A DNA stretch of 24,709 nt, from positions 1 to 24,709 of IMG/VR virus record IMGVR_UViG_3300010885_023131. One strand, 5' to 3'. Each line of letters starts with the position of its first letter. The stretch's first letter is position 1. The translations under genes and the position numbers were made by a program. The notes under the pieces were generated by a model. It saw only the letters and a program-made list of their open reading frames with translations. It was not told where the DNA came from and made no database searches. Below, piece by piece: positions 11,498 through 24,709 of the stretch. The stretch comes from a virus.

Positions 11498-11513
11498 ACA
11501 TACATATGTATGT
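11498..11513. repeat. 16-bp perfect palindrome between divergent operons
   Basis: The sequence ACATACATATGTATGT equals its own reverse complement. It lies between the leftward baseplate operon and the rightward gp4 operon and covers the gp4 start codon. By symmetry it also makes an ATG on the other strand at 11501. It could be an operator, or an mRNA hairpin at the gp4 start. No convincing sigma70 or TATAAATA box was found beside it, so its role is open. Confidence 0.5.
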
Positions 11514-11944
11514 CGTACAAGGGAATATTCAAACCTACTAACCCGTACAAGTATGTTGGTGACCATACCAATATAGTTTATCGTTCTCTATGGGAACGAA
11601 AATTTATGGTATTCTGCGACACCAACAACGGCGTCCTTAAATGGTGTTCCGAGGAAGTAGCAATACCTTATCTATCTCCGATTGACGGTAAATATCACCG
11701 ATACTATGTCGATTTTCTGGTTGAGTTCAAGACCCAAAAAGGACAGGAGATATTCCTCATAGAGATCAAACCAAAAAGACAGTGCAAGGAACCAAAGAAA
11801 GGTAAGAGGACTACCAAATCCTACCTCAAGGAAGTCCAGACCTGGAAAGTGAACAACTCTAAATGGGCCCATGCTAAGAAGTTCGCGGAACAAAACAAAT
11901 GGAACTTCCGAATACTAACGGAAGACGATCTCCACATCAAATGA
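11510..11944 (+). CDS. gp4: Head completion nuclease gp4
   Basis: 144 residues, close to T4 gp4 (150). Seen: MSYKGIFKPTNPYKYVGD at the N-terminus, YRSLWERKFMVFCD at 24-37, then IPYLSPIDGKYHRYYVDF and IFLIEIKPK. E29, D68 and the E85-x-K87 pair form a PD-(D/E)xK (TnsA-like) nuclease core. In T4, gp4 acts with gp50/gp65 to finish DNA-filled heads before tail joining. The ATG at 11510 is supported because the conserved N-terminal motif begins three residues later, yet there is no clear ribosome site and the codon lies in the palindrome. It may be read from a short or structured leader. The stop overlaps the next ATG (ATGA). Confidence 0.85.
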   Translation: MSYKGIFKPTNPYKYVGDHTNIVYRSLWERKFMVFCDTNNGVLKWCSEEVAIPYLSPIDGKYHRYYVDFLVEFKTQKGQEIFLIEIKPKRQCKEPKKGKRTTKSYLKEVQTWKVNNSKWAHAKKFAEQNKWNFRILTEDDLHIK

Positions 11945-12582
11945 AAAACATTCTACAAGACATAAAAGCCACCATTTCGTCCTTGAGGTCGGGTAAGATC
12001 AACGATGGTAAACCATCTACATCTTCTATCAAATGGTTCTCCAAGAAAGTCCAATCCCTCAAAACAATAACAAAGGGAGCGGTCAATCCACAGAACAAAA
12101 AAGTAAAAACCGACATCATAAACGATGCAATTGCGTCAAAGACATTCAGATACAAGAAATCTGGTTATGTGTATTTCTTTAATTACATTCCACCGAACGC
12201 CAAACAATTGGCATTCTATGACGAATTTCCTATGGTGCTGTCCTTGGGATTTTCAAATAATAAACTGATAGGCATAAATCTCCACTACCTTCCAACCAGA
12301 ATTCGTCTGTATGTGGTATACAAGATAGTCAAATCTATGTCATCTACTGCGAAGGAAGGAACCCGTATAAAGGTTCAGTCACTGCTGACAAGTAGGACTA
12401 TTCGCAAATATATAATGATACTTGGCGAAGAGTTCGATATGCGTGGAATAAGATCAAAGATAAAACTGGTGTCCCCTGACGAATTCCTAACTATGTCTTT
12501 CTTGCCAGTTCAGAAATTCAGAAAGAAACAGCAACCACAAGTGACCCAGCAAATAAACAAAATCTTTAGAGGAACGAAATAA
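11941..12582 (+). CDS. Probable DNA end protector (gp2-type), conserved T4-like virion protein
   Basis: 213 residues from the ATG at 11941. Seen: a basic N-terminal 60 residues (many Lys), then FNYIPPNAKQLAFYDEFP at about 80-97 and GINLHYLPTRIRL at 111-123, then a helical region and FLPVQKFRKK near the end. The YDxFP...GxNLHYLP pattern is, to my recollection, carried by proteins of environmental T4-like phages annotated as DNA end protector (gp2). In T4, gp2 protects packaged DNA ends from RecBCD and helps head-tail joining. T4 gene 2 also lies beside gene 4, which agrees. I recall the family but cannot align it to T4 gp2 here, so the function is tentative. The start overlaps the gp4 stop (ATGA), which is preferred over an upstream in-frame ATG at 11899 inside gp4. 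The stop overlaps the next start (TAATG). Confidence 0.55.
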   Translation: MKNILQDIKATISSLRSGKINDGKPSTSSIKWFSKKVQSLKTITKGAVNPQNKKVKTDIINDAIASKTFRYKKSGYVYFFNYIPPNAKQLAFYDEFPMVLSLGFSNNKLIGINLHYLPTRIRLYVVYKIVKSMSSTAKEGTRIKVQSLLTSRTIRKYIMILGEEFDMRGIRSKIKLVSPDEFLTMSFLPVQKFRKKQQPQVTQQINKIFRGTK

Positions 12583-13082
12583 TGGGATTAGATATGAACA
12601 TCGACATAGCGAGACCAAACAGATTTGTAGTATCTGTTTTTTCTCCATTCGGTGAATCGTTTCGCAATATGTATGTCGAAACCATAGATATGCCAAATCT
12701 TAGTATTGCCACGGAAGATTTCGAACTCGACGGCAAACCAAGTATCAAAGTCCCATACAAGAGAAATCCATCTGGAACCGTCACTCTCGGTATACGCCTA
12801 GAGGAAAGTGGCAAGTCCAGAAATATGTTCAAGCAGTGGATGGACAAGATAATCGTCACCAGCGACAACATCAACTACTACAGAGAATATTATGCAAATA
12901 TAACTGGAACAGTGGTCATAAAGCAACTGGATCTGAGTGATAAAGTCAAGTATGGAGTTACTCTGCTGAACGCATACCCAATTAATGTGGACACGGTCCA
13001 GTATGATTGGGGAGACAACAACACTTATGTGAAGCAAAATGTGACTATGTGTTATTACGATGAATTGATTGGTTCTTATTAA
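12582..13082 (+). CDS. Tail tube protein, gp19-like fold
   Basis: 166 residues, against 163 in T4 gp19. Seen: IARPNRFVVSVFSPFGESF near the N-terminus, and LLNAYPINVDTVQYDWGDNN with a final beta strand near the C-terminus. These match the ARPNxFxV start and the GLWPTNVGxxQLDWxxxN end of T4 gp19. The tube fold is shared by gp19, gp48, gp54 and Hcp-like proteins. It may be the main tail tube subunit, or a specialised paralogue at the tube end; its place next to gp26/gp51 and the tape measure does not settle which. The start has GAGGA 9 bases upstream and overlaps the previous stop (TAATG). A second ATG four codons later is less well placed. Confidence 0.75.
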   Translation: MGLDMNIDIARPNRFVVSVFSPFGESFRNMYVETIDMPNLSIATEDFELDGKPSIKVPYKRNPSGTVTLGIRLEESGKSRNMFKQWMDKIIVTSDNINYYREYYANITGTVVIKQLDLSDKVKYGVTLLNAYPINVDTVQYDWGDNNTYVKQNVTMCYYDELIGSY

Positions 13083-13094
13083 TATGGAGATAGA

Positions 13095-13814
13095 ATGAAA
13101 TTACCGAAACTAAACACCCCCACTTATACTCTAGAACTACCATCTACTGGTAAAAAGATCAAATACCGTCCATTCTTAGTCAAGGAAGAAAAGACGCTGC
13201 TTATCGCTTCCAAGACGGAAGATAGTTCGGTCATAGTGGAAAATCTGAACAATATCCTAAGAAACTGCATACTCTCTACGGATGTAGATGTTGAGAAGTT
13301 TACATCTTACGATGCACAGTGGATCTTCCTGAAACTACGCGAAGTGTCTATGGGATCGAAGATAGATGCAAGAGTAAAGTGTCCCATTACCCAGAAATAC
13401 TTCGATGCGGAACTTTCACTGGAGAACGCAAAACTCGTAAAATCGGAAAACAGAAAAGACAAGATAATACTGGACACTGCGTCTGGTGTAGGTGTGGTTC
13501 TCAGGGATCTAAGCCTATATGAAATATATTCTCAAGTAGAACTTTCCAAGACAGATGAATACAAAGCGATGATGACGCTATTGGCTATGTGTATAATTGA
13601 AGTGTTTGATAAGGAAAACACATATCCAGCAGCAGAACTGAGCATAGAGGAAGTTATTGACTTCTTGGAGAATCTACAGAAGGAGCAGTTTGACAAGATA
13701 AACGAGTTCTTCGAAGCAACACCAAAGATAAAACTGGAAGAGGATCTGTTCTCACCACACGCAAATGAATTTATTAAATTGGTGCTAGATAATTTTATGG
13801 ATTTTTTCGCCTAG
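13095..13814 (+). CDS. gp26: Baseplate hub subunit / tail-assembly chaperone gp26 (zero-frame product)
   Basis: 239 residues, against 208 in T4 gp26. Seen: LPKLNTPTYTLELPSTGKK followed by IKYRPFLVKEEKTLLIASK is the signature of the T4 gp26 baseplate family. A mid-region reads DAQWIFLKLREVSMGSKID. The start has GGAGATAGA just before the ATG. In T4, gp26 is needed for hub assembly. The end is odd: after NFMDFF the frame reads Ala and stops at TAG (13812-13814), while the -1 frame continues into a gp51-like domain. Gene position immediately before the tape measure is the place of tail-assembly chaperones in many tailed phages. I infer that this is the abundant short form and that a minor gp26-gp51 fusion is also made. 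Confidence 0.85.
   Translation: MKLPKLNTPTYTLELPSTGKKIKYRPFLVKEEKTLLIASKTEDSSVIVENLNNILRNCILSTDVDVEKFTSYDAQWIFLKLREVSMGSKIDARVKCPITQKYFDAELSLENAKLVKSENRKDKIILDTASGVGVVLRDLSLYEIYSQVELSKTDEYKAMMTLLAMCIIEVFDKENTYPAAELSIEEVIDFLENLQKEQFDKINEFFEATPKIKLEEDLFSPHANEFIKLVLDNFMDFFA
13802..13808 (+). promoter_or_regulatory. Slippery heptamer T-TTT-TTC for -1 ribosomal frameshift
   Basis: In the gp26 frame the codons are GAT TTT TTC GCC TAG, so the heptamer T-TTT-TTC fits X-XXY-YYZ exactly and sits 2 codons before the stop. After a one-base slip back the next codons are CGC CTA GGG and the frame stays open for 64 residues. The last stop upstream in the -1 frame is the TAA at 13789-13791 or within a few bases, so the overlap in which a shift can work is only about 8 codons and contains this heptamer. 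I saw no strong downstream hairpin and no clear upstream Shine-Dalgarno-like stimulator. Confidence 0.72.
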
Positions 13815-14002
13815 GGCTGTCTCGTGAATCTCTGGATGGAATGTATAAGACAAATTTCATCCTGATGCAAGAACACAAGTACAGCCTGGAAGAACTAGAG
13901 AATATGATGCCTTGGGAAAGAACGGTATATGTGAGTTTGTTGATTAAGCATATCAGAGAAATAAACGAAAAGATAGAAAAGAGAAACAAGAGGAGACGCT
14001 AA
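13808..14002 (+). CDS. gp51: gp51-like hub assembly / chaperone domain, read by -1 frameshift from gp26
   Basis: 64 codons plus stop, beginning RLGLSRESLDGMYKTNFILM and ending in a basic EKRNKRRR tail. The segment EHKYSLEELENMMPWERTVYV has the layout of the C-terminal domain of phage tail-assembly chaperones and of gp51-like proteins in T4-type phages (a helix, Y-S-xx-E-x-x-x-M, W/P, ER, Y-V). The first possible ATG in this frame is at 13841 and would remove the conserved opening; it has no good ribosome site (upstream GGATG only). The stop overlaps the tape-measure ATG by one base. Fused to gp26 residues 1-238 it would give a 302-residue protein. gp51 in T4 catalyses hub assembly. Independent translation from 13841 as a 53-residue protein remains possible. 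Confidence 0.72.
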   Translation, partial: RLGLSRESLDGMYKTNFILMQEHKYSLEELENMMPWERTVYVSLLIKHIREINEKIEKRNKRRR

Positions 14003-17000
14003 TGAGCAGACTCGGTTCCACATTAAGCACTTTAGGTCAAGTCGCACAGTCGGCTGGTGGTAAAATTGGCAGTGCTATGAAGGCAGGAAAACAGGCCAAA
14101 GACACCATAATGGCTAGCAAGACCTTCAAATCTATGCAAGGAACTATGCAAGGTCTGCTCAAAACCCAAGCAGCAATGGCAAAACAGTCCAAGAAAGCAG
14201 GAGCATTACAGTTTCTGGAAAAGGAAGATAATAAGGAATTCCAACAAGAACAGATGGAATTCTGGAGCATACTCCTGAAGAAACTCGACAGCATAGAAAA
14301 GAAACTAGACGGATTGACCGGCGGTGGAAAGGGTGAGAAGAAGGGACTTCTTTCCAAACTGTGGGATATTGCTTCTGGTTTGCTGGGTCTTGCAAACGCT
14401 ATTGGATTGCTGAGAATGATGTTCCCAAGATTGTTCAAGGCGATAGATGGATTGGGTCGAAAACTAAAAAATCTTGCTAGAAGAGCGGTGGGTAAGGAAC
14501 CAATTGAACCGAAGCCAGGTGAAAAGCCAGGAGAAGCAAAACCAGGCGAGAAGAAGGCTGGAGATACTAAACAAATAGAAGAAGAAGTAAAACCAGTAGA
14601 AGAACAAAAAACACCTCGTCAAGTTTCGGAAGAAGCAAAGATTGCAATATCCGAACAGGAAACAAGAATACAAGAAGTGAGAGCAGAACTGGAAAAGGTC
14701 TATGACAGATTGGATAAGACCAACCAAGCACTTGAGCAAAATGCAATAGAATTGGAAAAGGCCGGCAGAGAAGGTAATCTCGAAGCCACAGAACGACTCA
14801 AGGAAATGAGAGAGTTCATAAAAGAAGACATCAGGGAACTAGAAAAAACAATAACAGAGACGAAAGAAAAACTCACTGCCTCTCAGGAAAAACTGATTGA
14901 GGCAAGAGATGTCTCTGCACAGATGGAAAAGGCCGCGGTCGAAGGGGAGAAGGGATTCTTCGACAGATTGAAGCAAGGATTTGATGATCTTTTCCAAGAT
15001 CTCAAGAAGACGGTGAATGAGACGAGAGCAACATTCAACGAAAATGAAGCAAAAAATCTCAGAGAACAGGCAAAGAATGCAAAAACTCCAGAGGAAAAGG
15101 CTGCACTCGAAGAGAAAGCAACCCAACTGGAGAAAAGAGCAGGCGAACTGCGTGTTGCAGAGGCAAAACCAACAACAGAACCAGCGGCCGCAAAACCACA
15201 AACAACCGATGCGGATATTCAGAGAGCGGATGCAAATCAAAAAATAACAAGAGAGACGCTGCACGAACAGTATAGAGAAGCGCAGAGATCTTCTGGCAGA
15301 GAAATACCAAAAGATCCAGTACAAGCACTGAATGAAGAAGCAACATGGCTGGAAGAAACAGCCCAGATGGATAGAAAAAGTGCGAAGACGGCCGACAATA
15401 AGTTCTTCGAACGCAGTGCCGAAATCTCAGAACAGGTTGCAAAAGAACTAAGAGCAGAAGCGAAAGCAGCAGAAGCGAAAGCAGCAGAAGCATCAAAAGT
15501 CGGGGCAACTGTTGGAGAAGAAGCAAAACCAGAAGCGAAAGCGGCAGAAGCAGGTCCAGAAGCAAAAGCAGCGGAAGTAAAGCCTGCTGCTGATGTAACA
15601 CCACCAAAGACAGAATTGAAAATAGAAACAGGATATAATGATGCAGAGGGTGGTTATAAGAAAATGCCAAATGATATGGCAGCAGATGCAGTTAAAGCGA
15701 ATGTAATTGATGCCTCTGCAAGCGAAACAGTAAAACAAGAAATAAACGATGTAGTAGCCAGAGATACTGTTGGGCGAGAGGCTGGAGAAAGTTTCACTGT
15801 AGAAGGAAACTCTGGAGTTCGTTATGAAGTGAAGATGTCAGATACTTTGGATTCCAGTGGAAGACCATCCGTCGAATCCGTAAAGATAGACACATCTTCT
15901 ACCAAAGCACAACAAAATGTTGCACCGAAGGCTAAACCAACTGCTCCAGAACCCGCTAAGGCAGCAGAACCCGCTAAGGCAGCAGGAACAGCAGAAGCAC
16001 CAAGGACAACAGGAACTGCGGAGGCTGCTCCCAAAGCACCTGCGGCCGAAGTTATGTCGCCGACTGCTCAAGCGGGAACACCAGCACAAACAACTACACC
16101 AACCGCACCAACAACAAGAGCACCACGAGTATCTACAGATGCTTCATACATCAAACGAGCATCCGAATTTGTAACCAGAAGAGGTTCTATTGCAGCAGAA
16201 AATTTAAGAGAAATGGGTTCTCCCAAAACTCTAGGATTGGGTGCTTTAGGAATTGGAGCATTCTCTGCTGCTCAGTTGTTTAACCGATGGTTGTCTGGAG
16301 AAACTATAAGTCAAGAAGATATTGCAAGACAACTAACAACGGATACTGCAATAGCAGGCGCGGCATCTGGATTACTAGCAGTCGCTCCTGCTCTTGGTCC
16401 AGCAGCAGGAGCCCTTGCAATAGGTGCGGGTATGAATATAGGTACGGAGATACTCACATCATGGACACTGAATGATCGACTTAAAAACGAAAGTAAAAAA
16501 TATCAAGAGGATATTAAAAAACTATCAGAGAGTAACAATCCACAAGACAGAGCAGATCTGCTCGGATATACTCAATATTTTGCAGATTGGGCGCAGATTG
16601 ATAGACATAATGCGGAAGAATTAAACAGAGTACAGGGAACTTCCAGTGCTAGTATGGGTATGGGGTGGATGGGTGGAGGAATACAAGAAAATTATCAAGA
16701 ATATCCAAACATAAGCGACTACATCAAAGGTGGAGCAAAACAACAAGAAGCGATAAAGAAGCAAACATTCGTTGCGATAAAAGCAAGAATACTGGAAGAC
16801 ATTATAAACGACAATATCAAGAAATACCACGAAGGATCGCCTGGTATATTTGGTTCTATGCTCGAAGTTTTCATGCCACAATCAACGGAGTGGAGCGAAC
16901 AGGTAAGATTGGGTTTTGCTTCGGATATGGATCGTTACTTTGAGATATTACCAGAAAGCGACAAACAATTAATATCTGAAGTAGCAGGTTCTGAGAAAAT

Positions 17001-19143
17001 TGCGAAAGAACAGATAGGTCAATCTTTTAATATGATTGATAAATCTGAATTCGAAGCAATTAGAATGGCAAGAGATCCACAATACGCAAATCAACAACGA
17101 TCATCTTCAGACAAAGCAAGACAAAATTTCGAAGAAGCACCAAAACCAGGCGGAGCCAGGATGGAATTCAATTCTGGTGGCCACATCCCAGGTCCGAATG
17201 TCAACAAAGACATCGTTCCGGCGATGCTTACGCCTGGTGAATTCGTATTGCGTAGAGATGCAGTCAAGTCCATAGGTCTTGATGCACTGTATGCTATGAA
17301 CGAAGGAAAGGGTATGTTTACTTCGTTGGAAGGTATGTCTGGTGGTGGATTGGTCGAAGCAAGACCAATAAACATAAACGAACAATCACTGACGATAATA
17401 CCTTTTGACAAACCAGAAGCAACACCGATAAACTTCAACAGAGAACAAACTGAAGATTCGATCAGCAAAGAATACTATGAAACACAAAATAAAAAGATTT
17501 CCAAGAATCTAAAGAAGACAGAAGATGCTATTTCTAGAATAGAAAACAGCATACAAAAACTGGAATCTAGAGCAGACACAAGAGACAACAGATCTAGAAG
17601 AATATCACTTGAGAAATTCCTACAGAACAAGCAAAAGGAAAGAGAAGAACTTCTCAAGAGCAGCCAACTCATAGAGGAACAACTCACCAAGGCAGAGGAG
17701 CAGGAAACGAGAAGAGCAGAAGAGCAAACATCCTCTTCGGAATCTCAGGCAATATCCGTAGAAGCACAGATGAAAGAAGTCGATAAAACTTCTGCCAATA
17801 TCGCATTCATAGGAGAAGCACAGAAAAACATAGCAGCAGAACTGACGAAAAATGAAGAAGAGATAAGAAATATCCAAACAAATATTTCCAATCTCAAGGA
17901 TGTGGATTCCGAAGATGCTAGAAAAATGCAAAAATCTCTAGAAACATCCTTGGAAGAGAAGATCTCCCACAGAGAAGTCGTTCTTGATATGCAGAGAACT
18001 CTTGATCAGGAACTGAGCGATGAGACACAGAAGCAATTCGAAAAGACAACGGAACAAGCGACCATCAAAGCAGCGGATGTTCAGAAAAAGCAACAGCAGG
18101 ATATGTTGCGTCAGATGGAGATTTTGCAGAGAAACAACATCACCGAAGGTTTCTTCAAGATGGGACATTTGGTTGATGAGAACAACAAGGTAGTTGACTT
18201 TGATTCCACAAAAGCAACTTCAATAGAGGAAGCACAGAAGCAAGTCAACCAGTTGTTTGATACAAAATCCGATTCTATTACGACTTCTGCCGAAACAGTG
18301 GTGCCATCACAGTCACAGGAAGAACCATCTGCCACTCAACCAGTCGAAAAGACAGAAGAAGAGAAGAAGATTGAAATATCCAATCTAAAAGACATAAGTG
18401 AATCTTCATTCATAGTTTGGCAAAAAGCAAACGAAGAAATGATGAAGTCGATACAGAATGGTATTTCTGATGAAGAATACAAGAAAAGACAAGAAGAAGT
18501 AAACAATCTCTCCAAACAATACGAACAGAATAGCAAGATATATCAGGATAAACTTGAGGAATATTCCTCCAAGACGCAGACAAAAATAGAACCAAGATCT
18601 TTTGAAGAGATAATGGATAGTGTGTACAGAATTCAGAAGAATACCCCAACAGGTTTCGAGGCAATTCTACCACCAGAGGATGTTCGTCTTGATGAGAAGA
18701 TGCGTACGCCAAATACCAACTGGGTGACTCGCTTGGCGGGAACATCGAATTCTTCTATCAGTGAAAATTCTTCCACTATGACTGCTATTCACGACATAGG
18801 AAGAACCATAGCCAGTTCTGTGGATGAAAGATTGTATCAGACAAAAGAAAACACCACAAACATTCCAAGAACAGCAGAACCTATAATGCAGTGGAATTCC
18901 AAGAATAAACCAATAACTGCTTCTCTGTTTGAAGAGACATTTACACGAATAATACAAAAAGCAATTTCCGAATCAAATACACAGAACAAACCTACGGTAG
19001 TGAACAACAACTCAACAGTCATAGGTGGCGGTGATGGTGGTGGTGGACAGTTCCCACCATACAACACCCCAAGATTCTCGCCAATAGAAAGCGAGACGAT
19101 CTCTAGAATGACTGGAGAATACACAAAAGGTGCAGTGGTATAA
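14002..19143 (+). CDS. Tail tape-measure protein
   Basis: 1713 residues, largest gene here. Seen: a helical N-terminus (residues 1-150, Ala/Lys/Met-rich with hydrophobic segment GLLGLANAIGLLRMMFP near 125-145); long Glu/Lys/Gln-rich coiled-coil stretches at about 205-390 and 1130-1500; an Ala/Pro/Lys linker at about 480-710 with short tandem repeats; a strongly hydrophobic Gly/Ala block at about 740-820; the motif GGHIPGPNVNKDIVPAM then LTPGEFVLRRDAVKSIG at 1057-1095, which is typical of phage tape measures; and a Gly-rich tail. Tape measures set tail length and pass into the cell envelope with the DNA. At about 1.5 angstrom per helical residue it would predict a tail near 250 nm, but the long non-helical linker makes this an upper guess. 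The start has AGGAG 6 bases upstream. It is much longer than T4 gp29 (590). No peptidase or lysozyme motif was recognised. Confidence 0.85.
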   Translation: MSRLGSTLSTLGQVAQSAGGKIGSAMKAGKQAKDTIMASKTFKSMQGTMQGLLKTQAAMAKQSKKAGALQFLEKEDNKEFQQEQMEFWSILLKKLDSIEKKLDGLTGGGKGEKKGLLSKLWDIASGLLGLANAIGLLRMMFPRLFKAIDGLGRKLKNLARRAVGKEPIEPKPGEKPGEAKPGEKKAGDTKQIEEEVKPVEEQKTPRQVSEEAKIAISEQETRIQEVRAELEKVYDRLDKTNQALEQNAIELEKAGREGNLEATERLKEMREFIKEDIRELEKTITETKEKLTASQEKLIEARDVSAQMEKAAVEGEKGFFDRLKQGFDDLFQDLKKTVNETRATFNENEAKNLREQAKNAKTPEEKAALEEKATQLEKRAGELRVAEAKPTTEPAAAKPQTTDADIQRADANQKITRETLHEQYREAQRSSGREIPKDPVQALNEEATWLEETAQMDRKSAKTADNKFFERSAEISEQVAKELRAEAKAAEAKAAEASKVGATVGEEAKPEAKAAEAGPEAKAAEVKPAADVTPPKTELKIETGYNDAEGGYKKMPNDMAADAVKANVIDASASETVKQEINDVVARDTVGREAGESFTVEGNSGVRYEVKMSDTLDSSGRPSVESVKIDTSSTKAQQNVAPKAKPTAPEPAKAAEPAKAAGTAEAPRTTGTAEAAPKAPAAEVMSPTAQAGTPAQTTTPTAPTTRAPRVSTDASYIKRASEFVTRRGSIAAENLREMGSPKTLGLGALGIGAFSAAQLFNRWLSGETISQEDIARQLTTDTAIAGAASGLLAVAPALGPAAGALAIGAGMNIGTEILTSWTLNDRLKNESKKYQEDIKKLSESNNPQDRADLLGYTQYFADWAQIDRHNAEELNRVQGTSSASMGMGWMGGGIQENYQEYPNISDYIKGGAKQQEAIKKQTFVAIKARILEDIINDNIKKYHEGSPGIFGSMLEVFMPQSTEWSEQVRLGFASDMDRYFEILPESDKQLISEVAGSEKIAKEQIGQSFNMIDKSEFEAIRMARDPQYANQQRSSSDKARQNFEEAPKPGGARMEFNSGGHIPGPNVNKDIVPAMLTPGEFVLRRDAVKSIGLDALYAMNEGKGMFTSLEGMSGGGLVEARPININEQSLTIIPFDKPEATPINFNREQTEDSISKEYYETQNKKISKNLKKTEDAISRIENSIQKLESRADTRDNRSRRISLEKFLQNKQKEREELLKSSQLIEEQLTKAEEQETRRAEEQTSSSESQAISVEAQMKEVDKTSANIAFIGEAQKNIAAELTKNEEEIRNIQTNISNLKDVDSEDARKMQKSLETSLEEKISHREVVLDMQRTLDQELSDETQKQFEKTTEQATIKAADVQKKQQQDMLRQMEILQRNNITEGFFKMGHLVDENNKVVDFDSTKATSIEEAQKQVNQLFDTKSDSITTSAETVVPSQSQEEPSATQPVEKTEEEKKIEISNLKDISESSFIVWQKANEEMMKSIQNGISDEEYKKRQEEVNNLSKQYEQNSKIYQDKLEEYSSKTQTKIEPRSFEEIMDSVYRIQKNTPTGFEAILPPEDVRLDEKMRTPNTNWVTRLAGTSNSSISENSSTMTAIHDIGRTIASSVDERLYQTKENTTNIPRTAEPIMQWNSKNKPITASLFEETFTRIIQKAISESNTQNKPTVVNNNSTVIGGGDGGGGQFPPYNTPRFSPIESETISRMTGEYTKGAVV
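15454..15491 (+). repeat. 15-bp tandem repeat (about 2.5 copies) in tape-measure linker
   Basis: The unit GCAGAAGCGAAAGCA occurs twice exactly and is followed by 8 bases of a third copy. It encodes an Ala-Glu-Ala-Lys-Ala pattern. Related but diverged AEAK units continue to about 15590. This looks like length growth by slippage in a flexible linker rather than a regulatory repeat. Confidence 0.85.
15948..15983 (+). repeat. 18-bp perfect tandem duplication in tape-measure linker
   Basis: The unit AGAACCCGCTAAGGCAGC is present twice back to back, giving two copies of Glu-Pro-Ala-Lys-Ala-Ala. The identity at every base, including third positions, suggests a recent duplication. Confidence 0.9.
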
Positions 19144-20189: not shown

Positions 20190-20411
20190 TTAGAACGGTA
20201 AACGGGATGATTTGGGAAGAAGGTTGATCGACTCACCTTCTTCGCGAAGTTTTTCAATTATTGGTTTCGGTAGATGCTTTGCGATGTAGGATGGTTCAAA
20301 AGAAAAGTCCTCACAAAGTTTAAGTACCGCGTCGATGTATGTGTACTTCTTTTGGAGGACTAGTTTTTCTATTTCAGCCAGTATGTTTATGTCACTGTTT
20401 TCAATTATCAT
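20190..20411 (-). CDS. gp33: Late transcription co-activator gp33-like
   Basis: 73 residues from the ATG at 20411. Seen: LAEIEKLVLQKKYTYIDAVL, then KLCEDFSFEPSYIAKHLPKP and EKLREEGESINLLP. The pattern IEKLV...YIDAVL..CE...EP..IAK....K.....A/E..N.LL is that of gp33 from environmental T4-like phages. gp33 binds the RNA polymerase beta flap and, with gp55 and the gp45 clamp, activates late promoters. It is shorter than T4 gp33 (112) and lacks an obvious clamp-binding tail. The start at 20411 is preferred to an in-frame ATG at 20429 because GGAG lies about 10 bases upstream. It overlaps the epimerase end by 11 bases. gp33 before gp32 is also the T4 order, though T4 has gene 59 between them. Confidence 0.75.
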   Translation of the reverse strand: MIIENSDINILAEIEKLVLQKKYTYIDAVLKLCEDFSFEPSYIAKHLPKPIIEKLREEGESINLLPKSSRLPF

Positions 20412-21315
20412 ATTCTCGATTCTCCACATATTCTCGTATTGATTTTGTTGGTTTCCAACCGAGAATTGATTGTATTTTGCTTATATCTGCCAGAGTATGT
20501 CTCGCTTCACCAACTCTCGCTGGTAGATAAGTATACCTCTCGCCTATCATCTTTGCAAGATAATTCACAGAACAATTCTCACCAGAACCGACATTCATAA
20601 CATCGCCCTTGAAATTGTGTTCGCTTGTTGCTGCCATTATATTTGCATTCACGACATCATCGACATAGACATAATCCCTTGTCTGATTACCATCACCAAC
20701 TATGGTAAGTTGCTCTCCGTTCTTCTGCTGTCTTCTGAAAATACCGATGACAGGAGCATACGGCCCCTTCTTTGGTTGTCTTGGACCATACACATTAAAG
20801 TAACGCAAGCAGACGGTGGACAGACCGTATAGATTTGAATACATCTTGCAGGCCTGTTCTCCTGCCAACTTAGAGAGCGAATAGGCATTTAGGCAATCGG
20901 CCGGCATTTCTTCGTGCTGTGGAAGTTGATCGTTCTTCAGTCCATATATGGCAGAGGTAGTCGAAAGAACGAATCTCTTTACACCGTAATCTCTGGACAG
21001 TTTAAGCATGGTCAGAGTACCCATCAGATTAGTTTCATATGCTTTGGTGGGATCTTGAATGCAGTTCTGTATTCTTGCTTCTGCGGCAAAGTGAAGGACA
21101 TAATCTGGTCTAAATCCTTCAAATACTTGAGAACACATCGCATAATCCGTAACACACAACTTGAAAGATGCTCTTGCTTTGTCGTTGAAATAAAATTTAT
21201 CGTGTGCATCTGAAGATAGGTTGTCTATGACGATGACTTCGTGGCCCTGTTCTATGAGAGCATCGACCGCATTTGAACCGATGAAACCGTTTCCACCTGT
21301 TATTAGGTATTTCAT
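20401..21315 (-). CDS. NAD-dependent sugar epimerase/dehydratase (GalE-like extended SDR)
   Basis: 304 residues. Seen: the dinucleotide-binding GGNGFIG (7-13), an acidic residue at the end of strand 2 (VIVIDNLS, 27-34), STTSAIYG at 118-125 and the catalytic pair Y145-x3-K149 in NAYSLSKLAGE. The sugar-binding part has RYFNVYGPRQ (171-180) and RDYVYVDDV. Extended SDRs of this type interconvert UDP-glucose and UDP-galactose, or act on related nucleotide sugars; the exact substrate cannot be fixed from sequence. The start overlaps the stop of the mutase gene by 4 bases (ATGA), so it belongs to the same message. If it makes UDP-galactose it would feed the next enzyme. Its base composition is closer to the phage core than that of the cassette genes on its right. 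Confidence 0.88.
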   Translation of the reverse strand: MKYLITGGNGFIGSNAVDALIEQGHEVIVIDNLSSDAHDKFYFNDKARASFKLCVTDYAMCSQVFEGFRPDYVLHFAAEARIQNCIQDPTKAYETNLMGTLTMLKLSRDYGVKRFVLSTTSAIYGLKNDQLPQHEEMPADCLNAYSLSKLAGEQACKMYSNLYGLSTVCLRYFNVYGPRQPKKGPYAPVIGIFRRQQKNGEQLTIVGDGNQTRDYVYVDDVVNANIMAATSEHNFKGDVMNVGSGENCSVNYLAKMIGERYTYLPARVGEARHTLADISKIQSILGWKPTKSIREYVENREYDN

Positions 21316-22403
21316 ACTAATTCCCTTTCTGCCCTAGAAATTGCAGAACCAACAACTTGATGCATATCGTAATATTTGTAATCTGCTAATCTACCACCAA
21401 ATATGTATTTATCGTGATCTATTCTATCTCTGTACAGAGAATATAAGTTATTATTAAAATCATCGTTCACTGGATAGTATTTTTCTTTACTGACATCCCA
21501 ATCTTGTGGGTATTCTTTAGTAATTACTGTATGGTTCTGTTTACCAAAATTAAAGTGCTTATGTTCCACTATTCTGGTAAAAGGAACATTTTCATCTGTA
21601 TAATTTATTGCAGCAACTCCCTGATAATCTGAAATATCAAGATGCTCTTCTTCAAACTTCAAACTTCTCCATTCTAAAGTACCAAAATCATAATCAAAAA
21701 ACTCATCAATTGCTCCAGTATAAACAATTTTGTTGGCAATATTATTCCACTTATCTCTATCCTGTAGGTAATCAACACCAGTTTCTGTTGGAATATGTTT
21801 TAAAAGTTTATCAAAAATAGCAGTGTATCCTTCAGTGGGTATACCTTGATATTTGTCATCAAAATAATTATCATCAAAAACCAATCTGATCGGTAATCTT
21901 TTCACTATAGATGCTGGGAGATCTTTAGGTGATCTGTTCCACTGCTTCTTGGTGTATCCTTTAATAAATGTTTCATATATCTGTGTACCGACCTGGGACA
22001 ATATCCATTCCTCAAGATTTGATGGATTTTCTATATGAATTTTTTCTTTTTCTATTCTTTGTCTTGCTGCTGCTGGAGTAGTAACTCCCCAAAGTTGATA
22101 AAGAGTAAAAAGATTGATAGGAAAAGAATATAATTTGTTTTGATAATTTACTTTTGGTCTATATGTGAAATGGTTAAAACTAGTCCATCTGTTCATATAG
22201 TTCCATATTTTATCACTGTTTGTGTGAAAGATATGAGGACCATATTTGTGAATATGAATACCGTCTTTGTTTTCGGTGTAGCAATTGCCACCAACATGGT
22301 TTCTTTTATCTATGACTAGACACTTGGCACCCCTGTCCGTCATCTCTCTAGCAAAGATCGAACCAAATAAACCAGAACCGACTATCAAGTAATCATATAC
22401 CAT
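21312..22403 (-). CDS. glf: UDP-galactopyranose mutase
   Basis: 363 residues, normal for the bacterial family (about 370). Seen: FAD-binding GSGLFG (9-14), DKRNHVGGNCYT (32-43), HKYGPHIFHT (52-61), and near the end FGGRLADYKYYDMHQVV, all diagnostic for Glf. The enzyme, with reduced FAD, turns UDP-galactopyranose into UDP-galactofuranose, a sugar donor for bacterial surface glycans. The start overlaps the preceding stop by one base (TAATG) and the stop overlaps the epimerase start (ATGA). A sampled line is about 28 percent G+C, against about 38 percent in a sampled line of the epimerase, which suggests a different origin. Whether it serves the virion, DNA modification or the host surface is not shown. 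Confidence 0.95.
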   Translation of the reverse strand: MVYDYLIVGSGLFGSIFAREMTDRGAKCLVIDKRNHVGGNCYTENKDGIHIHKYGPHIFHTNSDKIWNYMNRWTSFNHFTYRPKVNYQNKLYSFPINLFTLYQLWGVTTPAAARQRIEKEKIHIENPSNLEEWILSQVGTQIYETFIKGYTKKQWNRSPKDLPASIVKRLPIRLVFDDNYFDDKYQGIPTEGYTAIFDKLLKHIPTETGVDYLQDRDKWNNIANKIVYTGAIDEFFDYDFGTLEWRSLKFEEEHLDISDYQGVAAINYTDENVPFTRIVEHKHFNFGKQNHTVITKEYPQDWDVSKEKYYPVNDDFNNNLYSLYRDRIDHDKYIFGGRLADYKYYDMHQVVGSAISRAERELV

Positions 22404-23278
22404 TATAGTAAATCTTTAATTGCTTTTTTTATTTGTTCATCCCAGTAACTCATTCTCATTCTATCTGTAGAAGTTTTTCTATTTTTTAATTCATCAAGTG
22501 AAGTTTCACACCACTGTCTGGTCAAATTCCAATCTTTAGTATAAACAACTGGGAGATCTTCAAAATGACGCAACTCTGGACAGTCCGACCAAATAGGAAT
22601 TCCTCCCATAATTATGGTTTCGTATGTTCTTAGACAATCTTTTCCTTCTCCTGCTGGACATGCAGAAAATATATGTTTTTTCATGGAACGATACATTTCT
22701 TCTGCACCAACTTGATGCTTGACAATATTAAAAATAGGATTACTTTCATTTTGTCTAATTAAAATTCTTCTTTCTTCATTATAACCTGTTGCATTTACTC
22801 TACAATAAACTAATTTATCTTTATATCTTTCTTCTTGAGTTTCTTTGGCAACCCATTCTAAATATGTTGAATGTCCGCCTTCAGTTCCACATCCTACTGG
22901 AACAGGTACAAATAATGGATCATTGAATTCTATGTTTATTCCGTACCATCTCTTAATAGATTTTTTAGATTTTGCTTTATCCAGTATTATCTGTGTTAAA
23001 CTCAAATCATTATTTCTAGTTATAACAATATAACAACCATCATCTGGCAATGAATCAATAAATTTTAAAAGATCCACATTTCCATTAGTATAAACTATAC
23101 CACTTTTTCCAATTTCATTTTTATGTTGAAATGGTATTAGATATGGAAATTCTTTAATTTTATCATTCAACCAACAAGGAACAGATGCAGAATATGGTCT
23201 ATAAACATAATTTGCATGTTTAATAAATTTAGTTGAATTTATTTGGTCCATATAAAGTGGCAAAGATTCGTCTATCAT
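22403..23278 (-). CDS. Exostosin-like glycosyltransferase
   Basis: 291 residues from the ATG at 23278. Seen: residues 203-231 read IFSACPAGEGKDCLRTYE then TIIMGGIPIW, which matches the FxLCPxGxGxDTxRxWEALxxGxIPV block of exostosin-type glycosyltransferases (GT47-like). The N-terminal half is alpha/beta with little similarity that I recognise. It would transfer a sugar from a nucleotide donor; donor and acceptor are unknown, though a galactofuranose donor is suggested by glf next door. The start at 23278 has AGAAGGA six bases upstream and overlaps the previous stop (ATGA); an upstream ATG at 23314 lies inside the methyltransferase gene. AT-rich with many AAA and AAT codons. Confidence 0.75.
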   Translation of the reverse strand: MIDESLPLYMDQINSTKFIKHANYVYRPYSASVPCWLNDKIKEFPYLIPFQHKNEIGKSGIVYTNGNVDLLKFIDSLPDDGCYIVITRNNDLSLTQIILDKAKSKKSIKRWYGINIEFNDPLFVPVPVGCGTEGGHSTYLEWVAKETQEERYKDKLVYCRVNATGYNEERRILIRQNESNPIFNIVKHQVGAEEMYRSMKKHIFSACPAGEGKDCLRTYETIIMGGIPIWSDCPELRHFEDLPVVYTKDWNLTRQWCETSLDELKNRKTSTDRMRMSYWDEQIKKAIKDLL

Positions 23279-23862
23279 ATTATTCCTTCTTTTTGTAAAA
23301 ATAAAGTATCCCAATAATTAAAACCACAGCCATGAGCAGAAGTTCTTTCAAATTTAATTGGAGTGTAATATTTACTTATTTTTTCTATACAAGCATTAAA
23401 TAATGTATCGTGTTTGGATTTAAAATTATGTTCGTGAAATTCTATTGATAATTGTTTTGGAATTGGTTTAAAATTATCGTCCATTAAAATATCATATTCA
23501 CTGCCCTCTATATCTATTTTTAAACAGTCAATATTTGTTCCAATTTCATTATAAATATTGTTTAATGTTATTGTTGTTATTTGTTCTGTTCTTTTTGATT
23601 GTGGTGTATCTGAAATAAAAGTTCCATTTGCATCGTTTACATAATTTACATACATTACTTTATTTGTTGTCCATAAAGCATTTTGTTTAAAAATATCTAT
23701 TGTTTCAGGTTTAATCATTGATTGTATATCGAGTGCATATACCTTTTCATTTCTCTCTTTCATCGCAAGAGAAAAATTCCAATTCCTACATCCAGCATCT
23801 ATTACCCAACCACCAGTTAATAGATCTGTTTTTATTGTATGTTCGTGTATTGTTTCTATCAT
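23275..23862 (-). CDS. FkbM-family methyltransferase
   Basis: 195 residues from the ATG at 23862. Seen: VIDAGCRNWNFS (20-31) is the SAM-binding motif I, VYALDIQ (41-47) the motif II region, LKIDIEGSEYDIL (114-126) and EFHEH (141-145) are the FkbM signature blocks. These enzymes put methyl groups on hydroxyls of sugars or peptides and are often found in phage and bacterial glycan clusters. The start overlaps the upstream stop by 4 bases (ATGA) with AAGAAG about 8 bases before; a longer frame from 23898 has no such support. One sampled line is 25 percent G+C. The FkbM call is firm; the acceptor is unknown. Confidence 0.87.
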   Translation of the reverse strand: MIETIHEHTIKTDLLTGGWVIDAGCRNWNFSLAMKERNEKVYALDIQSMIKPETIDIFKQNALWTTNKVMYVNYVNDANGTFISDTPQSKRTEQITTITLNNIYNEIGTNIDCLKIDIEGSEYDILMDDNFKPIPKQLSIEFHEHNFKSKHDTLFNACIEKISKYYTPIKFERTSAHGCGFNYWDTLFLQKEGII

Positions 23863-24569
23863 TTGAAATGCTTCTTTGTTACTATGAGTTCTGGACATGC
23901 AGGAATTCCTGGGGGAAGGTATTCACAACAACAATAACCACTTTCCTGACCTGTACAATATTCTAAATTATGTTTCCATAAAGATAAACCAAAACAAGTT
24001 TCATCATGTCTATGACCAGATGGACCACCAGAATCTTCCCATCTATCTGTTGATTTACCAAACAATCCTAATCGTTCTGATTCTTTCCATGTCTCAAATA
24101 CTTGTCTACACAGTGGTTCATCAAAATCTAAAGCATAAAAACTTCCTGCTGCAAATTTTAATCCCTTTTCTTTTGCCTCTTCTCTGGTTATTCCAAAATG
24201 CTTTAATGCAGAATCATTACAATTTGTCCATATGAAACTTGCATCATTAGATGCAACAATTCCATGAGTTTTGCAATATTGAAATACTCTACGGATATCA
24301 TTTACCAATATAGAAGCAGAATCCAACCAAACTATTTTTTTGTAACCGGCATCTAATGCTTCCTGTATAGCATGTATTTTAAAACCATACATGCTACCAT
24401 CATTACCATAATGTGGTTTTGAATTTTTTGGTAATCTATCTCTGTAAATAAATTGTTTAGCATTTGGATGTATTTTATTGATACTTTCTATCAATCTATC
24501 CAACATCGGTACATATTGTTTTCCAAATGCCGATGAGCAAAATGCTATATCCTTTTCTTGTATATTCAT
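23859..24569 (-). CDS. Probable glycosyltransferase (GT-A-like)
   Basis: 236 residues from the ATG at 24569. Seen: IAFCSSAFGKQYVPMLDRLI at the N-terminus is the first strand and helix of a nucleotide-sugar fold. Residues 61-92 (YGFKIHAIQEALDAGYKKIV then WLDSASILV) match the K...i..al......ivWlDaD element that places a metal-binding aspartate; here the motif is D-S-A-S, so the second acidic residue is missing. A Cys-rich C-terminal stretch (YCCCEY) is unusual. It probably adds a sugar, but the lost DxD leaves open a changed mechanism. The start has AAAGGA upstream, 10 bases after the preceding stop; an upstream in-frame ATG at 24629 lies inside the neighbouring ORF. Confidence 0.65.
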   Translation of the reverse strand: MNIQEKDIAFCSSAFGKQYVPMLDRLIESINKIHPNAKQFIYRDRLPKNSKPHYGNDGSMYGFKIHAIQEALDAGYKKIVWLDSASILVNDIRRVFQYCKTHGIVASNDASFIWTNCNDSALKHFGITREEAKEKGLKFAAGSFYALDFDEPLCRQVFETWKESERLGLFGKSTDRWEDSGGPSGHRHDETCFGLSLWKHNLEYCTGQESGYCCCEYLPPGIPACPELIVTKKHFK

Positions 24570-24579
24570 TATTATTCCT

Positions 24580-24709
24580 TTACCAGATAATATCTGCTGT
24601 GGAAGTTTCATACATCCTAGATGAATCAATATTTAGTTTAGTTCTATAATTAGTAAAATTGCCACCAAATACACCCTGAGAAAAATATCCAATCATCACA
24701 TCGTCGCTC
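24580..24709 (-). CDS. C-terminal end of an ORF cut by the right window edge
   Basis: A frame open to the window edge supplies the last 42 residues of a protein, beginning SDDVMIGYFSQGVFGG and ending in STADIIW before TAA. The stop is 10 bases before the glycosyltransferase start, so it is part of the same message. The DDVMIG opening recalls the late part of some glycosyltransferases, where an E/D-D-V-x-x-G motif is common, but 42 residues are not enough to name it. Confidence 0.6.
   Translation of the reverse strand, partial: SDDVMIGYFSQGVFGGNFTNYRTKLNIDSSRMYETSTADIIW

Follow-up and report, generated by a model that had tools for sequence, protein, structure and literature searches.

The arrangement of coding regions just ahead of the tape measure gene in the window (the whole stretch of 24,709 nucleotides analysed here, with features on the + strand unless stated otherwise) raises the question of whether gp26 and gp51 are two separate genes, or a single gene whose reading is extended by a programmed -1 frameshift, as the initial annotation had claimed. 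The gp26 ORF (239 aa, 13095-13814) belongs to PF12322 (E = 1.3e-45, above the cut-off), matches phrog_150 (E = 1.6e-47), and closes with the codons GAT TTT TTC GCC TAG, the stop codon being at 13812-13814. The -1 frame opens past a stop at 13790-13792, overlaps gp26 by 22 nt (13793-13814) and ends at the TAA at 14000-14002. The overlap holds a T_TTT_TTC heptamer at 13802-13808, phased as X_XXY_YYZ and situated just ahead of the gp26 TAG, and there is no second in-frame X_XXY_YYZ heptamer within gp26. A slip at this site would give a product reading FMDFF-RLGLSRESLDGMYKTNF..., with 64 residues past the slip codons. These 64 residues (RLGL...KRRR, codons 13808-13999 of a gp51 domain that extends to 14002) match PHROG 634, "baseplate hub assembly catalyst" (E = 2.7e-23), as well as our own HMM. 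They also match the C-terminus of PHROG 150 (E = 1.3e-6), which indicates that some PHROG 150 members have both domains in one protein. The first ATG of the -1 frame lies at 13841, 11 codons into the extension. The junction is as the initial annotation had described it, with its stop codon, its 64-residue gp51 domain in the -1 frame and the heptamer in the overlap. Neither gp26 nor gp51 nor the tape measure protein matched any NCBIfam family, and an Rfam scan of the junction returned chance-level matches only, far under the gathering scores.

We read the locus, with little doubt, as encoding a tail assembly chaperone that this T4-like myovirus makes in two forms from one gene by a -1 slip. Most ribosomes would stop at the TAG at 13812 and release the short form (TAC-N). 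A fraction would move one base back on T_TTT_TTC by tandem tRNA-Phe slippage, probably aided by a stem-loop beginning 5 nt later, and would continue to 14002 through the gp51 domain (TAC-C) to give gp26-gp51 (TAC-NC, ~303 aa). By the scheme put forward for lambda gpG/gpGT, the product of the following gene, the tape measure protein, would be coated by the N-domain, with tail tube subunits brought in by the C-domain. For this locus we infer these binding roles, as well as frameshifting in vivo and the ratio at which it occurs.

The window has the gene order tail tube family, gp26/gp51, tape measure. The gene directly 5' of gp26 (12582-13082, gp54/gp19 family) matches the tail tube phrog_45 (E = 1e-24) and, under the cut-off, Pfam Phage_T4_gp19; the gene in the same position is annotated as gp54 or tail tube in Aeromonas 65, phiM9, Mosig and others. 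On the 3' side, the ATG of the tape measure gene (14002-19143) overlaps the gp51 stop (TAATG) and is preceded by a GAGGAG ribosome binding site at 13990-13995, with a predicted duplex of -7.2 kcal/mol. The whole tape measure ORF has no match in Pfam or PHROGs, and its central segment (17080-17379) matched when searched alone, both to several "tail length tape measure protein" PHROGs (best 1.6e-7) and to annotated tape measure proteins; a GGHIPGPNVNKDIVPAMLTPGEFV motif is found at 17176. These matches identify 14002-19143 and bear out the placement of the junction directly before the tape measure gene. The protein is rich in E, A and K and, with 1713 aa, is larger than the genes in the same place in the cyanophages viewed (~530-1000 aa) and T4 gp29 (590 aa); its length and composition together hint that the tail is longer or that domains have been inserted.

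Relatives were collected in two ways, one set with gp26 and one with the gp51 extension, and the comparative set also took in S-RSM4, P-SSM2 and one marine single-cell virus. The loci that could be scored, with both the gp26 and gp51 parts present, number 162 and fall into 94 clusters at 80% nucleotide identity. The gp51 part is in the -1 frame relative to gp26 in 162 of 162 loci and NNT_TTT_TTN is kept in all 94 clusters, so that the overlap and heptamer recur at the gp26 end of its homologues. The last codon of the heptamer is TTC in 79 clusters, TTA in 8, TTT in 6 and TTG in 1, and the gp26 stop follows exactly 3 nt past the heptamer in 88 of the 94. Among the other Phe-Phe pairs of the same gp26 genes, taken as a control, the T_TTT_TTY form occurs at only 8 of 97. 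Given Phe-Phe, the chance of such conservation is ~1e-51 with the clusters taken as independent, a figure that overstates the case because the clusters are related. The residue preceding Phe-Phe is itself variable across the clusters (S, N, D, H or A), its codon being AGT, AAT, GAT, TCT, CAT or GCT with a third base T throughout, and common ancestry alone would hardly account for a residue that changes while the third base of its codon stays constant.

The same picture is obtained from isolated phages. A profile search found gp51 in the -1 frame together with a phased T_TTT_TTN in nine of nine lineages, namely Aeromonas 65, Aeh1, Vibrio PVA23, Sinorhizobium phiM19, phiM9, Agrobacterium OLIVR6, Acidovorax ACP17, Stenotrophomonas Mendera (whose gp51 profile match is weak, E = 0.55) and pelagiphage Mosig. 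None of the isolate or cyanophage records viewed annotates a joined gp26-gp51 gene, and in Aeh1 and ACP17 gp51 is missing from the annotation. Two contigs with gp26 and no gp51 match (L015 and L021) were considered as counter-examples and set aside because they are truncated contigs, ending within ~50 nt of the gp26 end. A lone overlap of this kind could come from an indel, that is, from a sequencing error or a decaying mutation that split one frame, though no tool result favours such an origin. The probability of this explanation is negligible, since it is refuted by the recurrence of the same junction in 162 loci of independent assemblies and in nine isolates of distinct lineages. Heptamer conservation and the invariable -1 frame instead support a programmed -1 frameshift fusing gp26 to gp51, and by sequence comparison the slip-made pair of gp26 and gp26-gp51 is conserved in every examined relative outside the T4 subgroup.

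GenBank and most database records give gp51 as a short gene with an internal ATG, and about a quarter of the clusters do have an ATG 3 codons past the slip. We consider it very unlikely that gp51 is such a separate gene, begun in the window at ATG 13841 or by ribosomes that reinitiate past the gp26 stop, as the first ATG of the -1 frame pairs with the ribosome worse than random positions do on average. A ribosome site at -6 kcal/mol or below is present at this ATG in 0 of 94 clusters, in contrast to 36% of gp26 starts, and in the window the duplex at 13841 reaches -3.1 kcal/mol, less than half of that of the tape measure gene. The position of the ATG also argues against a start there, since 17 or more codons of the extension precede it in 50 clusters and it lies 19 codons inside the conserved gp51 domain in 37 of the 94. 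In those 50 clusters, the entropy of the -1 frame before the ATG is 1.35 bits at third positions vs 0.78 and 0.59, and N-F at extension codons 15-16 is invariant in 50 of 50. With third positions the most variable and N-F unchanged, the region ahead of the ATG appears to be under selection as gp51 protein, in agreement with the earlier claim that the conserved opening of gp51 precedes its first ATG. A separate gp51 would, in addition, leave the invariant phased heptamer unexplained. It is therefore likely, as far as can be judged from the sequences, that gp51 is made in this phage exclusively as a gp26 fusion. A separately started gp51 with its own ribosome site and no heptamer was not found outside the T4 subgroup; within that subgroup gp51 does have a gene of its own, yet is itself a fusion of a gp26-like domain and gp51, which fits the same two-form scheme.

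In T4, gp26 and gp51 are encoded by two separate genes on opposite strands with no frameshift, which differs from the window. The likeness lies in the domains: T4 gp26 is of PF12322, and the gp51 C-domain common to both phages sits on a gp26-like N-domain. In T4 gp51 (249 aa), residues 1-201 match PF12322 (E = 3.9e-52) and residues 147-246 match phrog_634, the gp51 PHROG (E = 1.2e-23), and an alignment of T4 gp26 with gp51 spans 161 columns at 20% identity (E = 2e-6). In T4, the short form thus appears to be gp26 and the long form gp51, each with a gene of its own. A fused gp51, with gp26 on the other strand, is found in ten T4-type contigs. In one of them (L174:2982-3755, IMGVR_UViG_2974754850) gp51 is split between two frames, presumably by a sequencing error or because the gene is broken. 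T4 gp51 is required for assembly yet absent from the particle (PMC3004832).

A stem that could stimulate the slip is predicted downstream of the heptamer in the window, with its 5' arm at 13814-13826, after a 5-nt spacer, pairing with a 3' arm at 13874-13887 (90-nt fold, -25.8 kcal/mol, z = -2.45). A stem at about this distance is typical of frameshift stimulators. Averaged over the 94 clusters, the 85 nt that follow the heptamer fold with z = -2.0, compared with -0.1 to -0.7 at nine control positions (p = 3e-19 with clusters treated as independent). Stems of at least 9 bp starting 2-9 nt past the heptamer are predicted in 34 of 94 clusters, vs 0-5% of control windows, and a third or more of the relatives have no strong simple stem. 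The form of the stem is specific to the clade, being a hairpin of 10-11 bp, a perfect 8-bp hairpin with base pairs changed between clade members, or the long-range stem of the clade of the window. In the latter (7 members) 95% of stem cells are paired, and covariation is weak, with one double change from G-C to A-U that is not above shuffles (142/500).

These stems, as predicted folds, are good candidates for frameshift stimulators. They also bear on the possibility that RNA polymerase rather than the ribosome changes frame by slipping on the T run. The site does consist of six consecutive T, and an altered U count would join the same frames; such slippage needs neither codon phase nor a stem, yet NNT TTT TTN is always phased and stems are enriched. 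Six U are, moreover, short for efficient transcript slippage, and we regard a polymerase origin of the frame change as very improbable. Returning to ribosomal slippage, we lean towards a general rule in which T4-like chaperone genes outside the T4 subgroup carry the heptamer together with a stimulatory stem ~5 nt on, rebuilt clade by clade. Such rebuilding suggests selection on frameshift efficiency itself. If the rule holds, T4 would no longer have needed a stimulatory stem once its two products were encoded by genes of their own. Within the known system, the downstream stems may be a feature that is less described, and they open a way to test what sets the ratio of short to long form.

The structure model of gp26 has a pLDDT of 90. 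The top solved match of its N-domain (residues 1-86) is the HK97 tail assembly chaperone 2ob9, with Z = 7.4 (below 8), an rmsd of 4.1 and 84 aligned of 107 residues, the next entry being at Z = 5.1; Foldseek gives E = 0.47 for this match, which covers residues 1-86 only. The modelled N-domain may have a tail-assembly-chaperone-like fold, for which the match is moderate evidence, and this match, together with gene order and frameshift, fits the lambda gpG/gpGT scheme. The fold search with a model of the T4-type gp51, built from a 9-sequence alignment, did not have the HK97 chaperone among its matches. Residues 92-236 of the gp26 model (13095-13811) show a weak likeness to zinc-ribbon proteins such as NrdR (Z ~3); T4 gp26 and gp51 keep cysteine pairs in this second half, and the window keeps few.

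To our knowledge, no sequence similarity is to be expected between lambda gpG/gpGT and gp26/gp51, and the lambda slippery heptamer differs from T_TTT_TTC. The analogy that had been drawn with lambda is one of arrangement, a short chaperone with a -1 frameshifted extension ahead of the tape measure gene (PMC5009743), and it is supported by the overlap, the conserved slippery site and the order from tail tube to tape measure. This frameshift was stated in 2016 to be conserved in long-tailed phages "except T4" (PMC5009743). Another similar locus is that of Vandenendeviridae and Andersonviridae (phage Adele), where a TAC-N gene with a conserved poly-T -1 site is followed by the C-domain ahead of the tape measure gene (PMC12846349); its motif is GTTTTT, and we liken it to gp26 by description. 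Closer to the window, gp26/gp51 of cyanophages (Kyanoviridae, e.g., S-RSM4 and P-SSM2) have the same -1 overlap and T_TTT_TTC, although their records, unlike our fusion reading, give gp51 as a short gene.

Vladimirov and colleagues reportedly found frameshifting to be conserved in several T4-like groups, and are said to have described a T4 group with separate genes 26 and 51. According to the papers that cite them, Vladimirov, Gautam and Davidson (Virology 2022) identified the tail assembly chaperone genes of T4-like phages (PMC10885494, PMC12846349), some of which have a short gene alongside a longer, fused one (PMC10885494), with poly-T slippery sites in the TAC-N genes (PMC12846349). As far as these citing papers allow a comparison, their system and the window share the protein families, the poly-T slippery site in TAC-N and the position before the tape measure gene. 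The window differs in coming from an uncultivated lineage, with isolate relatives below 40% gp26 identity, and in its long-range downstream stem. The proposal that gp26 and gp51 are the tail-assembly chaperone pair is hence upheld by gene order, frameshift and the T4 fusion, and was not new, having been published in 2022; a frameshifted T4-like chaperone is already reported, and the window is a divergent, well-supported further member.

For annotation this means that, outside the T4 subgroup, gp26 and gp51, both counted as "baseplate hub" proteins, act like a single chaperone gene with a frameshift, that hundreds of cyanophage records probably mislead in calling them "baseplate hub" and "hub assembly catalyst", and that gp51 is often mis-started or missed. 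In S-RSM4, the gene after gp51 (L003:5192-8194) is annotated as 2OG-Fe(II) oxygenase/M23 peptidase-like and has weak tape measure matches plus peptidase matches; its product may be a tape measure protein that includes a peptidase domain. Elsewhere in the window, the ORFs at 11510-11944 and 11899-12582, a gp4 (head completion)-position ORF and a gp2-like DNA end protector gene, overlap by 46 nt, and the gp4-position ORF has a weak match, far under the cut-off, to the C-terminus of NF046055, a restriction endonuclease family. On the - strand beside the tail module (20401-24629) are sugar-related genes, whose translations were named by eye as NAD-dependent epimerase-like, UDP-galactopyranose-mutase-like and glycosyltransferase-like.
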